Shown piece after piece: positions 9,167-47,703 of a stretch of DNA of 64,000 nucleotides; position 1 is the stretch's first letter; every line of letters starts with the position of its first letter. Both the position numbers and the translations under genes were made by a program. Below the pieces are notes generated by a model that worked only from the letters and a program-made list of their open reading frames with translations, ran no database searches and had not been told where the DNA came from. This DNA comes from Alphaproteobacteria bacterium (GTDB lineage: Bacteria; Pseudomonadota; Alphaproteobacteria; UBA6615), in assembly GCA_039980135.1 (NCBI GenBank), contig JBDXCV010000003.1, forward strand, positions 1,091,458 through 1,155,457. Reading direction: 5' to 3'.

Positions 9167-9940
9167 ATGGCACTTGAACTCTATCATTCCGACCATTCGA
9201 CCTGCAGCCAGAAGGTGCGCATCTGTCTGGCCGAGAAGGGCCTCGACTGGGAGAGCCATGTGATGCATTTCACGTCGGGCGATCATCTGACCGATGCGTA
9301 TCTCAAGCTCAATCCCAACGGTGTCGTCCCGACCCTCATTCACGACGGAGAACCGGTGATCGAATCCTCCGTCATCGTCGAGTATCTCGACGAGATCCAT
9401 CCCGAACCGTCCCTGTCCCCGGCCGACTCGCTGGGGCGTGCGCGCCTGCGGGCCTGGATGCGCTACATGGAGGAGGTGCCGACCCCGGCGGTGCGGGTAC
9501 CGTCCTTCAACAAGGTGTTCCGGCCGCTGCGTTACGAGAATGCTTCGTCGGAAGACTTCGAGGCGCGGATTGAAAAAATGCCGCTCCGCAAGGCATTCTA
9601 CCGGCGCATGGGTCAGGTGGACGGGTTTTCCGAAGACGAAGTCGACAACGCGATCGCGCAAATCCGCCAGACCTGCGAGCGCATCGATGCGGCCATCGCC
9701 GGGAATGGCGGGCCCTGGATACTGGGCGAACAATATTCGCTGATCGACGTGACATTAACGCCCTTGATCCAGCGCATGGCCGACCTGGGCTACGGCCCGA
9801 TCTGGGAAGGCGATCTGCCGGAGATGACGGCCTGGTTCGAACGTATCAAGGCACGGCCTTCATTCGCCACGGCGTTCTATGCCAACACCAATGTGAGCGA
9901 GAAATACGCGCAGTTTTTTGCCGACAGAGAGTCCGAATGA
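9167..9940 (+). CDS. glutathione S-transferase family protein, copy 1
   Basis: The 257-residue protein has an N-terminal thioredoxin-like domain: SDHSTCSQKVRICLAEKGL, with the Ser/Cys at the active helix start, then NPNGVVPTLIHDG and ESSVIVEYLDE, which are the cis-Pro and gamma-glutamyl-binding Glu-Ser motifs. A helical C-terminal domain follows, ending with QYSLIDVTLTPLIQRM. A GGGAGA site lies ten bases upstream. It overlaps the next GST gene by the ATGA of start and stop, so the two are translationally coupled. GSTs of this type often open epoxides or dehalogenate or isomerise aromatic catabolites; which one applies here is unknown. Confidence 0.9.
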   Translation: MALELYHSDHSTCSQKVRICLAEKGLDWESHVMHFTSGDHLTDAYLKLNPNGVVPTLIHDGEPVIESSVIVEYLDEIHPEPSLSPADSLGRARLRAWMRYMEEVPTPAVRVPSFNKVFRPLRYENASSEDFEARIEKMPLRKAFYRRMGQVDGFSEDEVDNAIAQIRQTCERIDAAIAGNGGPWILGEQYSLIDVTLTPLIQRMADLGYGPIWEGDLPEMTAWFERIKARPSFATAFYANTNVSEKYAQFFADRESE

Positions 9941-10740
9941 AGATCGAGATGTATCAGGCGCCGCAATCGACCTGCAGCCAGAAGGTGCGGATCACGCTCG
10001 CCGAAAAGGGCCTGCCGGAGATGAACAAGGACTGGATCGAGCATGATGTCGATCTGGGCACGTTCGAACAGCTCGAGCCGGAGTATCTGAAGCTCAACCC
10101 CAACGGTGTGGTCCCGACCTTCGTGCATGACGGGACGGTCCTGATCGAATCCTCCGCCATCCTCGAATATCTCGAGGAAATCATTCCCGAGCCTGCGCTG
10201 GCGCCGGGCGATGCGGTCGGCCGTGCCCGGATGCGCGCCTGGATGCGCTACATCGACGAGGTGCCCACGGTGGCGGTGCGGGTGCCGACATTCGCCAACA
10301 TGCTGGCGCCGATGCGGTTCGCCAAGGCGAGCAATGTCGAGTTCGCCGCCCATGCGGACCGGCTGCCGCTGCGCAAGCAATTCTACCAGCGCATGTCCCA
10401 GACGGGTTTCGGCAAGGATGAGCTCGAATATGCCGAGTTCCAGATCCGCCAGACCTGCGAGCGGATCGATGCGGCCATCGTCGAACATGGCGGCCCGTGG
10501 ATCATGGGCGCCCAGTACACGATGGTGGATGCGCAGGTCACGCCGCTGATCGACCGCATGGACGACCTCGGCTACGCCTTCCTGTGGGAGGACGACCTGC
10601 CGGAGATGACCGCCTGGTTCGCGCGCATCCGGGCACGCCCGTCATATGCGGCGGCGTTCTATCCCGGCGCGCGCATTTCCCAGCGCTACCCGGACTATTA
10701 CCGGCCTGTATCGGAACTCAAGGCCGAACGCGGCTACTAG
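9937..10740 (+). CDS. glutathione S-transferase family protein, copy 2
   Basis: The 267-residue paralogue of the preceding gene is collinear with it: QSTCSQKVRITLAEKGL, NPNGVVPTFVHDG, ESSAILEYLEE and QYTMVDAQVTPLIDRM all align. Compared with copy 1 it has a small insertion after the first helix (MNKDWIEHDVDL) and a longer C-terminus. It overlaps copy 1 by four bases (ATGA). The pair may form a heterodimer or act on successive intermediates; this is inference. A REP-like hairpin pair follows in the convergent 3' region. Confidence 0.9.
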   Translation: MKIEMYQAPQSTCSQKVRITLAEKGLPEMNKDWIEHDVDLGTFEQLEPEYLKLNPNGVVPTFVHDGTVLIESSAILEYLEEIIPEPALAPGDAVGRARMRAWMRYIDEVPTVAVRVPTFANMLAPMRFAKASNVEFAAHADRLPLRKQFYQRMSQTGFGKDELEYAEFQIRQTCERIDAAIVEHGGPWIMGAQYTMVDAQVTPLIDRMDDLGYAFLWEDDLPEMTAWFARIRARPSYAAAFYPGARISQRYPDYYRPVSELKAERGY

Positions 10741-10765: not shown

Positions 10766-10837
10766 GTCATGCGCGGACTTGATCCGCGCATCTCGCAAAG
10801 ATCGAGACGGGATGCCCGGGTCGAGCCTGGGCATGAC
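10766..10837. repeat. REP-like hairpin pair, family A (copy 1)
   Basis: Two inverted half-units lie head to head, each a hairpin with stem CGCGGA/TCCGCG or CCCGGG/CCTGGG around TTGA/TCGA. The ends are GTCA and TGAC and the inner junctions ATCTC and GAGAC. It lies between the 3' ends of the convergent GST and muconolactone-isomerase-like genes. The right half is slightly degenerate. Confidence 0.85.
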
Positions 10838-10860
10838 GAATGGAGAGGGGTGTTCGCCCG

Positions 10861-14973: not shown

Positions 14974-15045
14974 GTCATGCCCGCACTTGATGCGGGTATC
15001 TCGTCTCGGTCTATGTGAGATGCGCGGATCAAGTCCGCGCATGAC
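14974..15045. repeat. REP-like hairpin pair, family A (copy 2)
   Basis: The left half stem is CCCGCA/TGCGGG and the right half stem is CGCGGA/TCCGCG, each around CTTGA or TCAAG, with GTCA and TGAC ends. The two halves have different stems, each internally complementary. It lies between the convergent 3' ends of the hydroxyacyl-CoA dehydrogenase and the SDR genes. Confidence 0.9.
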
Positions 15046-15052
15046 GTGGTTT

Positions 15053-18790: not shown

Positions 18791-18862
18791 GTCATGCCCG
18801 GACTTGATCCGAGCATCTCACAATGACCGCGACGAGATACCCGCATCAAGTGCGGGTATGAC
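18791..18862. repeat. REP-like hairpin pair, family A (copy 3)
   Basis: The left half has stem CCCGGA/TCCGAG (one mismatch) and the right half CCCGCA/TGCGGG, each around TTGA/TCAA, with GTCA and TGAC ends. It lies between the convergent 3' ends of the amidohydrolase and the second GGT-like gene. Confidence 0.88.
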
Positions 18863-18883
18863 GTGCGTGTAAAAGGACGACGG

Positions 18884-21842: not shown

Positions 21843-21865
21843 TACCTGTCATGTCCATCTCTTCT

Positions 21866-21957
21866 CGTCACTCCCGCGAAGGCGGGAGTCCATAAACGCC
21901 GACGCGGGACCGGGCAGGCGCCTGTGACGATGGATGCCCGCCTGCGCGGGCATGACG
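21866..21957. repeat. family B palindromic repeat pair (copy 1)
   Basis: A left hairpin CTCCCGC/GCGGGAG and a right hairpin GCCCGCC...GCGGGC are separated by about 40 bases, with outer ends GTCA and TGAC as in family A. The left flank of the spacer reads TCCATAAACGCCGA, repeated at 45263-45354. It lies downstream of the M20 hydrolase gene. Confidence 0.85.
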
Positions 21958-21985
21958 ATGGAGAGTGATTCACCTACTCTCCGTC

Positions 21986-22056
21986 GTCACGCGGACTTGA
22001 TCCGCGTATCTCAGCGCAAACCGAGACGAGATGCCCGCATCAAGTGCGGGCTTGAC
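21986..22056. repeat. REP-like hairpin pair, family A (copy 4)
   Basis: The left half has stem CGCGGA... with a small deletion at its 5' end (GTCACGCGG), and the right half has CCCGCA/TGCGGG. The inner junctions are TATCTC and GAGATG. Together with the adjacent family B unit it fills nearly all of the 297-base gap between the M20 hydrolase and the acyl-CoA synthetase; the rest holds only a short leader. Confidence 0.85.
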
Positions 22057-22139
22057 GCCGATTGTTGTCACTGGATCCCGTTTGGCGGCGGCGTCCTATC
22101 TGGCTAGAGTCTCCCCAACAATAAACCGGGGGCTGTTCG

Positions 22140-23821: not shown

Positions 23822-24289
23822 ATGGCGAAGTTTTCCCATCCGGACGTGTTCCTCGATCTCGTCGGCACCGAGCTCGGCGTCAGCGACTGGGTGCTGATCG
23901 ACCAGCCGATGATCGACGCGTTCGCGGATGCGACCAACGACCATCAATGGGTGCATGTGGACCCCGCGCGCGCCGCGCGCGAACTGCCGACCGGTACGAC
24001 CATCGCCCACGGGTTCCTGGTGCTGTCTTTGCTGGCGCCGCTCAGCTACGAGATTTTCGACGTGGGTCACGTCGCCCACGAGCTCAATTACGGGCTCAAC
24101 AAGGTCCGCTTCACGGCGATGGTGCCGGCGAATTCGCGGGTGCGCCTGCGCCAGGTGCTGGCCAGCGCGGAGAAGCGCGAGGATGGCGGTGTGTCGCTTG
24201 TCCTCGACGCGACGATCGAGCTGGAGGGCAGCGAACGTCCCGCCGCCGTGGTGCAGAATCTGCGCCTGATTTATCCCGAGGATGATTGA
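23822..24289 (+). CDS. MaoC family (R)-specific enoyl-CoA dehydratase, copy 1
   Basis: The 155-residue single hot-dog-fold protein has the hydratase-2 motif ATNDHQWVHVDPARA, with catalytic Asp and His, followed by TTIAHGFLVLSLL and the NYGLNKVRFTAMVPANSRVRLR strand region. It would hydrate trans-2-enoyl-CoAs to (R)-3-hydroxyacyl-CoAs. GGAGAAGG lies upstream of the ATG. It is co-transcribed with the acyl-CoA synthetase. A close paralogue lies in inverted orientation at 25474-25947. Confidence 0.9.
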   Translation: MAKFSHPDVFLDLVGTELGVSDWVLIDQPMIDAFADATNDHQWVHVDPARAARELPTGTTIAHGFLVLSLLAPLSYEIFDVGHVAHELNYGLNKVRFTAMVPANSRVRLRQVLASAEKREDGGVSLVLDATIELEGSERPAAVVQNLRLIYPEDD

Positions 24290-24306
24290 GTTCCTACAGA
24301 ACCTTC

Positions 24307-24379
24307 GTCATGCCCGGACTTGATCCGGGCATCTTGTCTCGGTCCGCGTAGAGATACGCGGATCAAGTCCGCGTATGAC
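24307..24379. repeat. REP-like hairpin pair, family A (copy 5)
   Basis: The left half has stem GCCCGGA/TCCGGGC and the right half ACGCGGA/TCCGCGT, around CTTGA or TCAAG. The ends are GTCA and TGAC. It lies between the convergent 3' ends of the MaoC and phosphotransferase genes. Confidence 0.9.
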
Positions 24380-24392
24380 TGTTTTTGGTGGG

Positions 24393-25466
24393 TCAGCCCG
24401 CACCCTCCACCAAACCCCATGCCCGGATCGACAGCTGCCGGGTCAGGTCGCGGCGCAGCAGCGCCTCGGGGGACGAGGCGTTGCCCTGCAGCCCGCGGTA
24501 GTAGACGCCCTGGATGATCGCCGCGAGGCGGAACAGGGACAGCACCAGATAGAAGTTCCAGTTCTCGATCTCGTCGCGCCCGGTGTGTTTGCAATAGGCG
24601 GCGACGTAATCGGCTTCGGAAGGAATGCCGGGAACAGAAGTGTCGAGCCCGCGCATGTCGCCGAAGCTTTCCTCCGGCCAGTGATAGGGCAGGCAGTTGT
24701 AGGCGAGGTCCGACAGGGGATGGCCCAGGGTCGAGAGCTCCCAGTCCAGCACCGCGATCACCCGGGGTTCGTCATGGGCGATGATCAGGTTTTCCAGCCG
24801 GAAGTCGCCGTGCACGATTGTCGTCTCGCTGTCGTCGGGCATGTTGTCGGGCAGCCAGGCCATGAGATGGTCCATCTCGGCCAGCTCGTCGGTCTTCGAC
24901 GCCTCATACTGCTTCGACCAGCGGACGACCTGCCGACCCATATAGCCACCCACGCGGCCATAATCGCCGAGGCCGACCGCGTCGAAATCCACCTGGTGCA
25001 GGGCGGCCAGGGTCTCGATCATCGAGGCGGAGATCGCCGCGCGCTCTTCGGGCGAAAGATCCGGCAACGAAGGGTCGTGGAACACCCGCCCGTCGGCATG
25101 GTCCATGAGGAAGAACTCGGTGCCGACGATGGACACGTCTTCACACAACGCCAGCGTCCGCACCACGGGGACCGGCGTGTCGGCCAGCGCCGAAGTGATC
25201 CGGTGCTCCCGGTCAACCGCATGGGCTGACGGCAGCAGCTCGCCCGGCGGCTTCTTGCGCAACACGTAGCGCCGGCCGTTCGCGTCGGTCAGCAGGAAGG
25301 TGGGGTTCGACATGCCGCCCTGGAACTGGGCCAGCTCGATCGGGCCTTCGAAGCCCTCGATGTTGGCGGTCATCCACGCCACCAGGGCCGTGTCGTCGAA
25401 CCGGTGCTGGTCCAGCACGGGCACGACCTGGTCGGTGCGCGAGTATGTGCGGTCGGCGGTGCTCAT
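24393..25466 (-). CDS. phosphotransferase family protein (ACAD10-type aminoglycoside-phosphotransferase fold)
   Basis: The 357-residue kinase-fold protein has an N-lobe with FQGGMSNPTFLLTD and RYVLRKKPPGELLPSAHAVDREH, a catalytic loop IVHGDFRLENLI and the metal-binding VIAVLDWELSTLG. It ends with the LPYHW and RLAAIIQGVYYR segments typical of the ACAD10/11 N-terminal-kinase family. Relatives phosphorylate 4-hydroxyacyl-CoAs before elimination, which suits the CoA-thioester neighbourhood. GAGAGGAGA precedes the ATG. It starts seven bases after the second MaoC gene's stop codon, so they form an operon. The hydroxyacyl-CoA substrate is inference. Confidence 0.9.
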   Translation of the reverse strand: MSTADRTYSRTDQVVPVLDQHRFDDTALVAWMTANIEGFEGPIELAQFQGGMSNPTFLLTDANGRRYVLRKKPPGELLPSAHAVDREHRITSALADTPVPVVRTLALCEDVSIVGTEFFLMDHADGRVFHDPSLPDLSPEERAAISASMIETLAALHQVDFDAVGLGDYGRVGGYMGRQVVRWSKQYEASKTDELAEMDHLMAWLPDNMPDDSETTIVHGDFRLENLIIAHDEPRVIAVLDWELSTLGHPLSDLAYNCLPYHWPEESFGDMRGLDTSVPGIPSEADYVAAYCKHTGRDEIENWNFYLVLSLFRLAAIIQGVYYRGLQGNASSPEALLRRDLTRQLSIRAWGLVEGAG

Positions 25467-25473
25467 TCTCCTC

Positions 25474-25947
25474 TCAGCTCCCGATCGCTTCGGGAAACAA
25501 AAGCCGGACGGTCTGGGCGACGGCGGCGGGGCGCTCGCTGCCCTCCAGCTCGATGACGCTGTCGAGCACCAGATGCACGCTGCCGTCGGGGCGTTTTTCC
25601 GCGCTGGCCAGCGACTGGCGCAGCCGGACGCGGGAATTCACCGGCACCATGGCCGTGAAGCGCACCTTGTTGAGCCCGTAGTTGATCGTGTGGGCGAGGT
25701 TGTCGATCCGGAAGAACGGATAGCTCAGCCCCGGGATCAGCGACAGCACGAGGAACCCGTGCGCGATGGTCTTGCCGCCGGGCATCTCTTCGGCGGCGCG
25801 CGACGGGTCGACGTGCAGCCACTGATGATCGTTCGTCACGTCCGCGAATGCGTCGATCCGGGCCTGGTCGATCTCGACCCAGTCGCTGAGACCGAGCTCC
25901 TGGCCGACCTTGTCGAGGAATTCGTCGGGGTGCCCATAGTGAGACAA
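25474..25947 (-). CDS. MaoC family (R)-specific enoyl-CoA dehydratase, copy 2
   Basis: The 157-residue paralogue of the gene at 23822 is alignable along its full length, and the two share NYGLNKVRFTAMVP, NSRVRLRQ and ELEGSERPAA exactly. The hydratase-2 motif VTNDHQWLHVDPSRA is intact. It forms an operon with the phosphotransferase gene downstream and is divergent from the second multifunctional dehydrogenase. The two MaoC genes form an inverted pair about 1.2 kb apart, suggesting duplication followed by divergence. Confidence 0.9.
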   Translation of the reverse strand: MSHYGHPDEFLDKVGQELGLSDWVEIDQARIDAFADVTNDHQWLHVDPSRAAEEMPGGKTIAHGFLVLSLIPGLSYPFFRIDNLAHTINYGLNKVRFTAMVPVNSRVRLRQSLASAEKRPDGSVHLVLDSVIELEGSERPAAVAQTVRLLFPEAIGS

Positions 25948-36916: not shown

Positions 36917-37000
36917 GTCATGCGCAGACTTGATCCGCGCATCTCGAATCTCGGTGCGAGCGGGTTTGGCGAGATGCCTGGGCCAGGCCCTGAGCTAACA
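36917..37000. repeat. REP-like hairpin pair, family A, degenerate (copy 6)
   Basis: A clear left half (GTCATGCGCAGACTTGATCC... at 36917-36946) is followed by a decayed right half (GAGATGCC...CCTGAGCT, about 36971-37000). It lies between the convergent 3' ends of the AT-rich island genes A and the Cys4 gene. Unlike the island genes it has host-type GC content. Confidence 0.65.
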
Positions 37001-45134: not shown

Positions 45135-45231
45135 GTCATGCCCGGACTCTAATAGATCGTCATACGCGGACTTGATCCGCGTATCTCGGCACAGACCCGG
45201 ACGAGATGCCCGGATCAAGTCCGGGCATGAC
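45135..45231. repeat. REP-like hairpin pair, family A (copy 7) with a truncated half-unit in front
   Basis: A truncated GTCATGCCCGGACT fragment (45135-45148) is followed by a full pair at 45159-45231: left stem ACGCGGA/TCCGCGT, right stem GCCCGGA/TCCGGGC, with GTCA and TGAC ends. This suggests repeated insertion or recombination at the same site. Confidence 0.85.
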
Positions 45232-45262
45232 GAATTTGGCGGTGCTCTCAAACCACCCCTCT

Positions 45263-45354
45263 CGTCACTCCCGCGAAGGCGGGAGTCCATAAACACCGAT
45301 GCATGATCGGGTTAGCGCTCGAGTGTATGGATGCCCGCCTGCGCGGGCATGACG
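45263..45354. repeat. family B palindromic repeat pair (copy 2)
   Basis: It is the same structure as the copy at 21866: CTCCCGC/GCGGGAG left hairpin, TCCATAAACACCGA spacer start, GCCCGCC...GCGGGC right hairpin, and GTCA/TGAC ends. It lies directly before the hisI stop codon. Confidence 0.85.
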
Positions 45355-45360
45355 ATGTTT

Positions 45361-47094: not shown

Positions 47095-47110
47095 CCCATT
47101 AAAAATTCCC

Positions 47111-47257
47111 GTCATGCCCGAACTCCACCTGCGTCATGCCCGGACCTGATCCGGGCATCTCGTCTCTCAACCCGCCTGCGTCATGCCCGGACTTGATCCG
47201 GGCATCTCGTCTCTCAACCCCACCTGCGTCATGCCCGGACTTGATCCGGGCATCTCG
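47111..47257. repeat. tandem array of family A half-units (about 48-base period)
   Basis: A truncated unit at 47111 is followed by three nearly identical half-units starting at 47133, 47180 and 47228, each GTCATGCCCGGA...TCCGGGCATCTCG, joined by TCTCTCAACCCxxCCTGC. The direct repetition at 47-48 bases is distinct from the inverted pairs elsewhere. The last unit lies 30 bases before the GIY-YIG start codon. Confidence 0.9.
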
Positions 47258-47286
47258 GCTAAAATCTCGCCGAGGGAGAAACGGCC

Positions 47287-47574
47287 ATGCCCGGCGGCTG
47301 GGTCTACATCGTCACGAACCGGCACGGAGGTACGCTTTACGTCGGCGTAACCTCAGACATTGCGCGTCGTGCATGGGAGCATCGTGAGGGTTTTGTCGAA
47401 GGTTTCTCCAGCCGCTACCGGCTGAAGCGGCTGGTTCATGCCGAACGCTTTGACGACATGCGAGACGCAATCCAGCGTGAGAAGACAATAAAACATTGGT
47501 CTCGCGCGTGGAAAATCGACCTGATAGAGGCGGCAAATCCTGATTGGGATGATCTCTATGGCGTTTTGATCTGA
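47287..47574 (+). CDS. GIY-YIG nuclease family protein (solitary domain)
   Basis: The 95-residue single-domain protein has the GIY element as VYIVTN, the YIG element as LYVGVTSDIARRAWEHREG with the catalytic Arg in the helix, and the metal-binding Glu in the AIQREKTIKHWSR helix. The C-terminal WKIDLIEAANPDWDDLY is typical of this small UvrC-N-like, UPF0213-related group that often occurs in many copies in alphaproteobacteria. GAGGGAGA lies about eight bases upstream of the ATG. It is framed by two inverted REP-like half-units. It probably nicks DNA; the host target is unknown. Confidence 0.92.
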   Translation: MPGGWVYIVTNRHGGTLYVGVTSDIARRAWEHREGFVEGFSSRYRLKRLVHAERFDDMRDAIQREKTIKHWSRAWKIDLIEAANPDWDDLYGVLI

Positions 47575-47578
47575 GCAA

Positions 47579-47607
47579 GAGATACGCGGATCAAGTCCGC
47601 GTATGAC
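47579..47607. repeat. family A inverted half-unit downstream of the GIY-YIG gene
   Basis: It reads GAGATACGCGGA-TCAAG-TCCGCGTATGAC in the opposite orientation to the upstream copies and begins five bases after the GIY-YIG stop codon. The stem ACGCGGA/TCCGCGT is perfect. Confidence 0.9.
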
Positions 47608-47703
47608 GACTGGAGTTTAGTGCCCGCACACCTCGCCACCCAACCCGATTTGCGCGATACTGCGTGACCCATCGTTAGGCCGTTCCCACAAAGCGAGAAC
47701 CCC

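Follow-up and report, generated by a model that had tools for sequence, protein, structure and literature searches.

A small GIY-YIG nuclease gene between inverted CGTC-tagged REPs: a candidate nuclease-REP system in Alphaproteobacteria

The GIY-YIG gene, its hairpins and their repeat classes

The 64,000-nucleotide stretch of DNA analysed here (the window) carries a gene for a small GIY-YIG nuclease between inverted copies of a hairpin-forming repeat, class A. Further copies of the repeat occur in the window without a gene, and a second repeat family, class B, is also present. The features are as follows.

47132..47162, + strand: class A CGTC REP, tandem unit 1, tag outward (away from the gene)
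47179..47209, + strand: class A CGTC REP, tandem unit 2
47227..47257, + strand: class A CGTC REP, tandem unit 3, 29 nt before the start codon
47287..47574, + strand: single-domain GIY-YIG nuclease gene (Pfam PF01541), 95 aa
47579..47608, - strand: class A CGTC REP in inverted orientation, GAGAT...GACG, starting 4 nt past the stop codon and with its tag outward
10766..10838, 14974..15046, 18791..18863, 24307..24380 and 45157..45233: inverted class A REP pairs that enclose no gene
21984..22057: a further inverted class A REP pair without a gene, its right unit imperfect
36917..36945, + strand: class A REP, left unit, with a degenerate right partner
21863..21960: class B REP pair (ACTCCCGCGAAGGCGGGAGT...ATGCCCGCCTGCGCGGGCAT), the second repeat family
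45260..45357: class B REP pair

Upstream of the gene, three tandem hairpin units with a period of 47-48 occupy positions 47121-47257, and a degenerate half-copy of the unit lies near 47110. The initial annotation had placed the gene inside a hairpin pair. It does lie between inverted hairpins, but its upstream side is a three-copy tandem array and not a single half-unit. In reverse complement, the downstream unit at 47579-47608 is identical to the left unit of a gene-free pair (45157-45187; 31/31). Gene-free inverted pairs had been named at six places, and all six were recovered within 2 bases, the right unit of the pair near 21986 being imperfect. The window also contains long direct (~76%) and inverted (~75%) repeats at 9357-10665 and 23837-25932, which are apparently paralogous genes.

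The window protein matches the Pfam GIY-YIG family with an E value of 1.1e-13 (51.7 bits, the cut-off being 22.6). PF01541 is its sole Pfam match, leaving it without an HUH/Y1 tyrosine transposase domain at this level, and no NCBIfam model matched it. An AlphaFold2 model based on a 13-sequence alignment had a mean pLDDT of 91.2, and in structure comparisons UPF0213 protein 1zg2 was the only solved fold with E <0.001 (2.3e-4), followed by weaker matches to UPF0213 protein 1ywl, Slx1 and the nuclease (N-) domain of UvrC. A profile search agreed with this ranking (1zg2, 3e-8; 1ywl, 3e-4). In an alignment of 13 type I proteins, the family of the window enzyme, R28, E65 and N84 are invariant and V6, Y7, L17 and G20 are present at ≥90%; going by I-TevI and UvrC, we take these positions to be catalytic. 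By Pfam score, model fold and conserved residues alike, the protein has the fold and motif of the GIY-YIG superfamily, and type I members also share an NPxWxDLY motif near the C-terminus. Among six relatives, dS was usable in 11 of 15 pairs, and in these dN/dS was 0.05-0.20, although dS was <1 only in the pair L006-L009 (0.11). The conserved motif residues of the type I enzyme are under purifying selection. Slx1 acts on branched DNA, and the likeness to Slx1 therefore suggests a cruciform or hairpin base as the predicted substrate.

Class A repeats are spread through the genome. A 28-mer pattern of the family (≤3 mismatches) occurred 109 times in 3.76 Mb, against 0 occurrences of the reversed pattern, and the family is therefore not a product of chance. 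A set of 106 units was drawn from 52 genome site clusters, the window and loci L002 and L003. The unit consists of CGTC, a 9-bp stem starting with AT, closed by a 5-nt loop, and a short tail, and reads CGTC-ATGCCCGGA-CTTGA-TCCGGGCAT-CTC. The search for units imposed TCAT on the tag side, and those letters are conserved by construction; at the tag positions that were not imposed, C and G carry 1.65 and 1.86 bits across the 106 units, and the adjacent outer base carries 0.33. The unit thus has a sharp boundary at the CGTC tag. At the other end, the tail positions C, T and C carry 2.0, 1.49 and 0.98 bits, values that are biased since the pattern used to fetch units included the tail, and beyond the tail conservation drops to 0.1-0.4 bits. 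Perfect hairpins in 1.37 Mb of other loci together with the window were tagged with GTC in 247 cases and with the reversed tag in 1.

As described in PMC3733652, CGTC REPs have a CGTC tag, a stem of 8-9 bp starting from AT, a loop of 4-5 nt and a short tail (usually CCA), and occur mostly as dimers; Neisseria dRS3 and two Rickettsia RPE families are counted among them. The stem, loop and tail of class A fall within these limits. When 45 adjacent class A pairs within 120 nt were sorted by orientation, 36 were (+,-), 6 (-,+), 2 (+,+) and 1 (-,-), so that the predominant arrangement, in 36/45 pairs, is the inverted dimer of the superfamily with its tags outward. Since tag, stem, loop, tail and inverted dimers all agree, we assign class A to this superfamily, and its hairpins fit the description of CGTC-tagged REPs.

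Spacer sequences within class A pairs vary, and spacer lengths peak at 20-22 and 31-34 nt, approximately one helix turn apart. Treating spacers as independent, the phasing in this genome has a Rayleigh p of ~6e-6 at 10.5 and lower still at 11-11.5. Helical phasing was rejected as a general feature, as it was absent in 40 pairs from 80 loci and the window. Class B is represented in the genome by 36 units, of which 34 make up 17 inverted pairs; unlike class A, these 17 pairs have a near-constant distance of 61-63 nt from start to start. Among the first 100 pattern matches listed, a region of contig C9 at ~181-214 kb is seemingly dense in class A REPs.

Four PF01541 matches were found in this genome: the window gene, a gene on contig C7, a frameshifted copy on C9, and UvrC. 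The C7 gene directly follows a slyX-like gene (an identity we assume), with REPs directly 3' of it and, on the 5' side, only beyond slyX. The C9 copy (C9:200631; L003/L026) is apparently a frameshifted type I gene with a class B REP pair at once 3' of it; another class B pair lies ~1.2 kb upstream. The expectation that the GIY-YIG genes of this genome would each sit between class A hairpins was not borne out, since only one of the four does so directly.

Flanks of homologous genes and their repeat classes

Homologues are held by 16 of 24 genomes of the family. As the flanks of 31 family loci show, most type I genes are bracketed by hairpins, and the class of hairpin differs by gene. A flank-to-flank match with a score of ≥18 was found in 15 of the 16 type I family loci that were scored, window included (19 fetched loci look type I). 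For a broader sample we took the best 80 of at least 576 relatives with ≤10 kb on each side, of which 78 were scored; the two sets overlap in the apparently identical contigs L115/L009, L117/L021, L122/L012 and L180/L034. Flanks of 250 nt gave an inverted match (≥18) at 62/78 genes versus 2/827 other genes of the same loci. When matches in either orientation were counted, the figure was 70/78, versus 2/121 for control genes isolated by ≥80 nt on both sides; the remaining 8/78 genes had no matching flanks. The nearest tagged hairpins had both tags outward in 43/78 cases (0/851 controls), and a tagged hairpin stood on both sides, in any orientation, in 58/78 (5/851 controls). The type I gene is thus an enzyme gene flanked by inverted cognate REPs, as in REP/RAYT systems. 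The initial annotation had staked its proposal on homologues in relatives being flanked by hairpins, and with 15/16 family loci and 70/78 broader loci the proposal withstood this test.

The association extends to other enzymes. In a phylum sample of 299 genomes, 27 genomes outside the class had matches, and 9 of the 12 loci scored passed the flank test, 6 by an inverted match and 3 by a direct match only. Type II is a divergent GIY-YIG subfamily with a GYTKSRRP motif, found in 11 of 114 class genomes searched. Thirteen type II loci were fetched and 12 scored, of which 10 passed; one of these, L400 of G078, coincides with the place of a type I match and was dropped, leaving 9/11, with repeats of TCATCCTGAG...CTCAGGATGA or related kinds. 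The slyX-linked GIY-YIG genes serve as a natural negative control: their flanks matched in 0/4 cases and, within the flanks viewed, had hairpins on the 3' side only. Two loci, L021 and L027, seemingly occupy the same intergenic spot in two family genomes, with GIY-YIG genes of two subfamilies and two repeat classes. The neighbours there are presumably gatB and an AEC-transporter gene, as named from their reading frames, and the spot may be a landing place.

Genomes with several genes allowed gene and repeat class to be compared within one genome. Sixty loci were fetched from such genomes, some copies being omitted, and 59 loci in 18 genomes were used. When each upstream flank was compared with every downstream flank fetched from that genome, the best match was the gene's own downstream flank in 49/59 cases, where 18 were expected. 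Scores of ≥18 were reached by 45/59 own pairs and 17/194 other pairs, and the observed sum exceeded that of every one of 10,000 permutations (p ~1e-4). In G127, flanks matched in 6 of 10 fetched genes, and only 2/90 cross pairs reached 18. In multi-gene genomes, each type I gene tends toward its own repeat class. Between genomes, enzyme similarity and flank similarity were correlated across 78 loci (Mantel r 0.48, p 0.0005, with genome kinship ignored; the maximum of 2,000 null permutations was 0.17). Within genomes, gene similarity and flank similarity showed no significant correlation (Spearman 0.09, 97 pairs).

REP abundance follows the presence of the gene. The same 289 class genomes were searched for the enzyme (scoring ≤18 candidates in each) and for a single REP pattern; type I matches at E ≤1e-25 were found in 92/289. 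Of the genomes holding a type I gene, 32/92 had ten or more REP copies, versus 15/197 of those without one (OR 6.5, p 2.5e-8), and at ≥4 copies the OR was 7.8. With one genome per family (118 genomes), ≥4 REPs were found in 18/36 versus 5/82 (OR 15, p 1.5e-7). No type I gene was found in 15 of the 47 genomes with ≥10 copies of one REP class. In eight of these 15, all GIY-YIG frames found are long (609-696 aa, with one of 329 aa); the other 7 hold some small GIY-YIG gene, with matching flanks in 3 of the 8 scored (of 11). REP-rich genomes that lack a small GIY-YIG partner indicate that REPs can persist in the absence of a present-day partner; E. coli genomes without a RAYT gene can likewise still hold REPINs (PMC8049555). 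A separate observation concerns G246, a 1.7 Mb genome with 129 matches to a REP pattern in which no small GIY-YIG gene was found.

Variation of gene and repeats at shared sites

The window gene sits between what we take to be a cobW-like gene and an enoyl-CoA hydratase gene. At this site, 12 other genomes of the family comprise 9 without a class A hairpin, 1 with degenerate repeats and 2 with a REP pair. The last two, the congeners G022 and G023, carry the same right-hand REP and flank as the window, and no gene. Hairpins and gene therefore vary in presence between relatives, as had been predicted: the site holds the gene, a bare pair or no REP. Despite having no gene, G022 has an extra tandem unit, giving a two-unit version of the array. 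The array is consequently not tied to the gene, and the earlier idea that it was a product of nuclease activity is not sustained. At a second site (L006), the gene is present in congeners G021-G023 and in G006, a relative from another genus whose copy has one in-frame stop; the window's genome has only a class B pair there. A gene tree of 19 proteins places the window gene near the congeners' copies with weak forks, from which we infer, and because of those forks only infer, that the window gene moved from this second site.

Similar variation was seen elsewhere. In Azospirillum lipoferum 4B, a REP pair, the gene and a second REP pair lie between sufB and sufC, and neither the gene nor such REPs were found at that site in the four Azospirillum relatives read. 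A Shinella site holds the gene in two plasmids, and in the two other plasmids that were read no REP is present there. The gltA/lpxB interval contains the gene in S. meliloti Ak57, and a single palindrome with a tag at either end in Sinorhizobium C101; the left tag there reads CCTC, and the aligned parts are 96% identical to Ak57. The fnrL/response regulator interval of Sphingobium has the gene in 3 records, one double-tagged palindrome in 2 and neither in 2; the double-tagged alleles are those of two plasmids, and the palindrome is imperfect in L292. The Rhizobium 330-kb plasmids L285, L297 and L298 all contain the gene and offered no contrast of occupied and empty sites. Double-tagged palindromes were also considered as scars, and this was rejected as 4 in 1.37 Mb, against 0, 0 and 2 in tag-swapped controls, are too few.

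Copies of the gene within a genome are not alike. In 97 within-genome pairs of fetched copies from 18 multi-copy genomes, none exceeded 71% identity, and near-identical copies of the kind left by a multiplying element were absent from this set. The copies therefore look like parallel single-copy lineages and not like an expanding element, and an autonomous multiplying transposon is unsupported by the 97 pairs. Site flanks, compared by eye, had diverged too far for a short target-site duplication to be recognised. The proposal of an autonomous element accordingly stands in part: the REP/RAYT-like layout and the site variation agree with it, and the identity values do not. Pieces of a locus's own gene were found elsewhere in the same locus in 3/80 loci (L168, L175 and L191); in L175, a Bacteroidetes MAG, a 222-nt piece with 93% identity lies ~2.4 kb downstream of the full gene, a rare and recent partial duplicate and the one exception seen to the low identity between copies. 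Three Sinorhizobium records contain remnants of the gene: in L288 these are flanked by REPs, and in L299 and L301 they adjoin a REP. These bear on the suggestion that shorter pairs derive from gene-containing ones. Remnants beside REPs in Rhizobiaceae speak for it, whereas inspection by eye of the spacers of the 36 gene-free class A pairs in this genome revealed no recognisable gene remnant or shared gene-end sequence, and deletion of the gene was rejected as the origin of these pairs.

A candidate enzyme for CGTC REPs

The gene and its hairpins, associated on both sides, with outward tags, matched classes within and between genomes and variation by site, probably constitute one system, in which a type I GIY-YIG nuclease disperses CGTC-tagged REPs of a class specific to it. 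The gene for this nuclease is enclosed by an inverted REP pair with tags outward. Its product would recognise the cognate tagged palindrome, as a cruciform or as a single-strand hairpin exposed during replication, and would cut near the tagged base of the palindrome. Repair of the break against other copies could then place single REPs and REP pairs, and rarely the gene as well, at new intergenic sites; it could also carry REPs, or rarely the gene, into standing REP pairs. We infer from the associations described above that the enzyme recognises and cleaves REPs and that cleavage drives their dispersal.

The best reading of these data is that the nuclease and its REPs would work like REP/RAYT with an unrelated enzyme, with presumed cleavage and mobilisation. 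The parallel drawn in the initial annotation is supported in architecture and in its generality across homologues: a nuclease gene lies between inverted tagged REPs, many REPs and pairs are gene-free (here >100 class A units), the enzyme forms single-copy lineages, and REPs are commoner where the enzyme is present, as in E. coli (PMC8049555). There are also differences. The enzyme is GIY-YIG and not an HUH/Y1 tyrosine transposase, and the tag is CGTC and not GTAG, for which reasons we do not file the system as a member of REP/RAYT. RAYTs are described as vertically inherited and not observed on plasmids (PMC8049555), whereas the GIY-YIG gene is found in records of plasmids and does not occupy the same site in all congeners. 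A 2013 survey (Di Nocera et al.), in the passages drawn on here, presents CGTC REPs as apparently without a dedicated transposase and leaves the question open (PMC3733652); unlike those REPs, with which no transposase gene was associated, the REPs described here have a GIY-YIG partner. The small GIY-YIG gene is a strong candidate for the putative missing enzyme behind CGTC REPs. Among the matches listed in a search of open full text, with few subscription papers and no bioRxiv preprints, we recognised no paper linking GIY-YIG genes with REPs, and in the part of a 2025 REP survey that was consulted (PMC12306157) there were 0 mentions of nuclease, RAYT or transposase.

An unlikely alternative is that REPs spread by other means, and that a free-standing homing-type gene, with REP pairs as its cutting sites, is copied between the two REPs, which act as homology arms. 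GIY-YIG homing endonucleases such as I-TevI and the Seg proteins are well known as selfish genes whose presence varies at orthologous sites, and the gene described here varies in the same way; it differs from them in having no intron and no second domain, and in its link to a dispersed hairpin family. The gene-free pair with the same right-hand REP in G022 and G023, together with the gene elsewhere in three congeners, suggests that the gene entered or left a standing pair, and the unoccupied C101 allele and two Sphingobium plasmid alleles consist of one double-tagged palindrome, as if interrupted by the gene. Both enzyme-driven dispersal and homing are compatible with the window site and with the single-palindrome alleles. 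Homing would, however, leave unexplained why REP class matches gene clade and why REP abundance tracks gene presence, and the unoccupied Azospirillum and Shinella sites that were read lack such a REP. Because of the class matching and the co-occurrence, we favour dispersal of the REPs by the enzyme.

It is less likely again that a structure-specific nuclease serves the host, trimming or resolving REP cruciforms or using REPs as regulatory sites, with no dispersal. The enzyme is under purifying selection, its gene forms single-copy lineages, and it belongs to the same fold family as UPF0213 (1zg2, 1ywl), Slx1 and the UvrC N-domain, with Slx1 and UvrC among the nearest folds after UPF0213, though only 1zg2 has E <0.001. 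The genes for UPF0213, Slx1 and UvrC are, as we take it, stable host genes, unlike the one described here, and its presence and absence at the same site, its occurrence in plasmid records and its remnants beside REPs look mobile and not like housekeeping. Finally, REPs are common between genes, and the slyX-linked GIY-YIG genes have hairpins on the 3' side only in the flanks viewed, but mere proximity of an ordinary small nuclease gene to REP-rich intergenic DNA, with hairpins as terminators, is very unlikely given the control genes (isolated controls 2/121 versus 70/78; outward tags 0/851 versus 43/78), barring bias in the controls, and given the tendency of genes of one genome toward their own repeat class.

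If the nuclease does disperse its REPs, the principle may reach beyond type I. We give even weight to the broader proposal that small GIY-YIG nucleases are dedicated mobilisers both of CGTC REPs and of repeats of the TCATCCTGAG...CTCAGGATGA type (the latter by type II enzymes), each lineage having its own repeats. Such mobilisation would be convergent with REP/RAYT from an unrelated nuclease fold, and would possibly proceed by structure-specific cruciform cutting and subsequent repair. These systems would then form a class of mobile system, widespread in bacteria, that has so far gone unrecognised.

GTAG-tagged REPs have a known partner enzyme, RAYT, and CGTC-tagged REPs now have a small candidate enzyme. 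As the candidate is small and comes with matched substrates, the question of the CGTC REP partner is directly testable. If our reading is correct, it would add a REP-type system of independent origin, and would point to a role for the many genes whose sole label is 'GIY-YIG nuclease family protein'. Part of the intergenic variation among related Alphaproteobacteria would also be explained.
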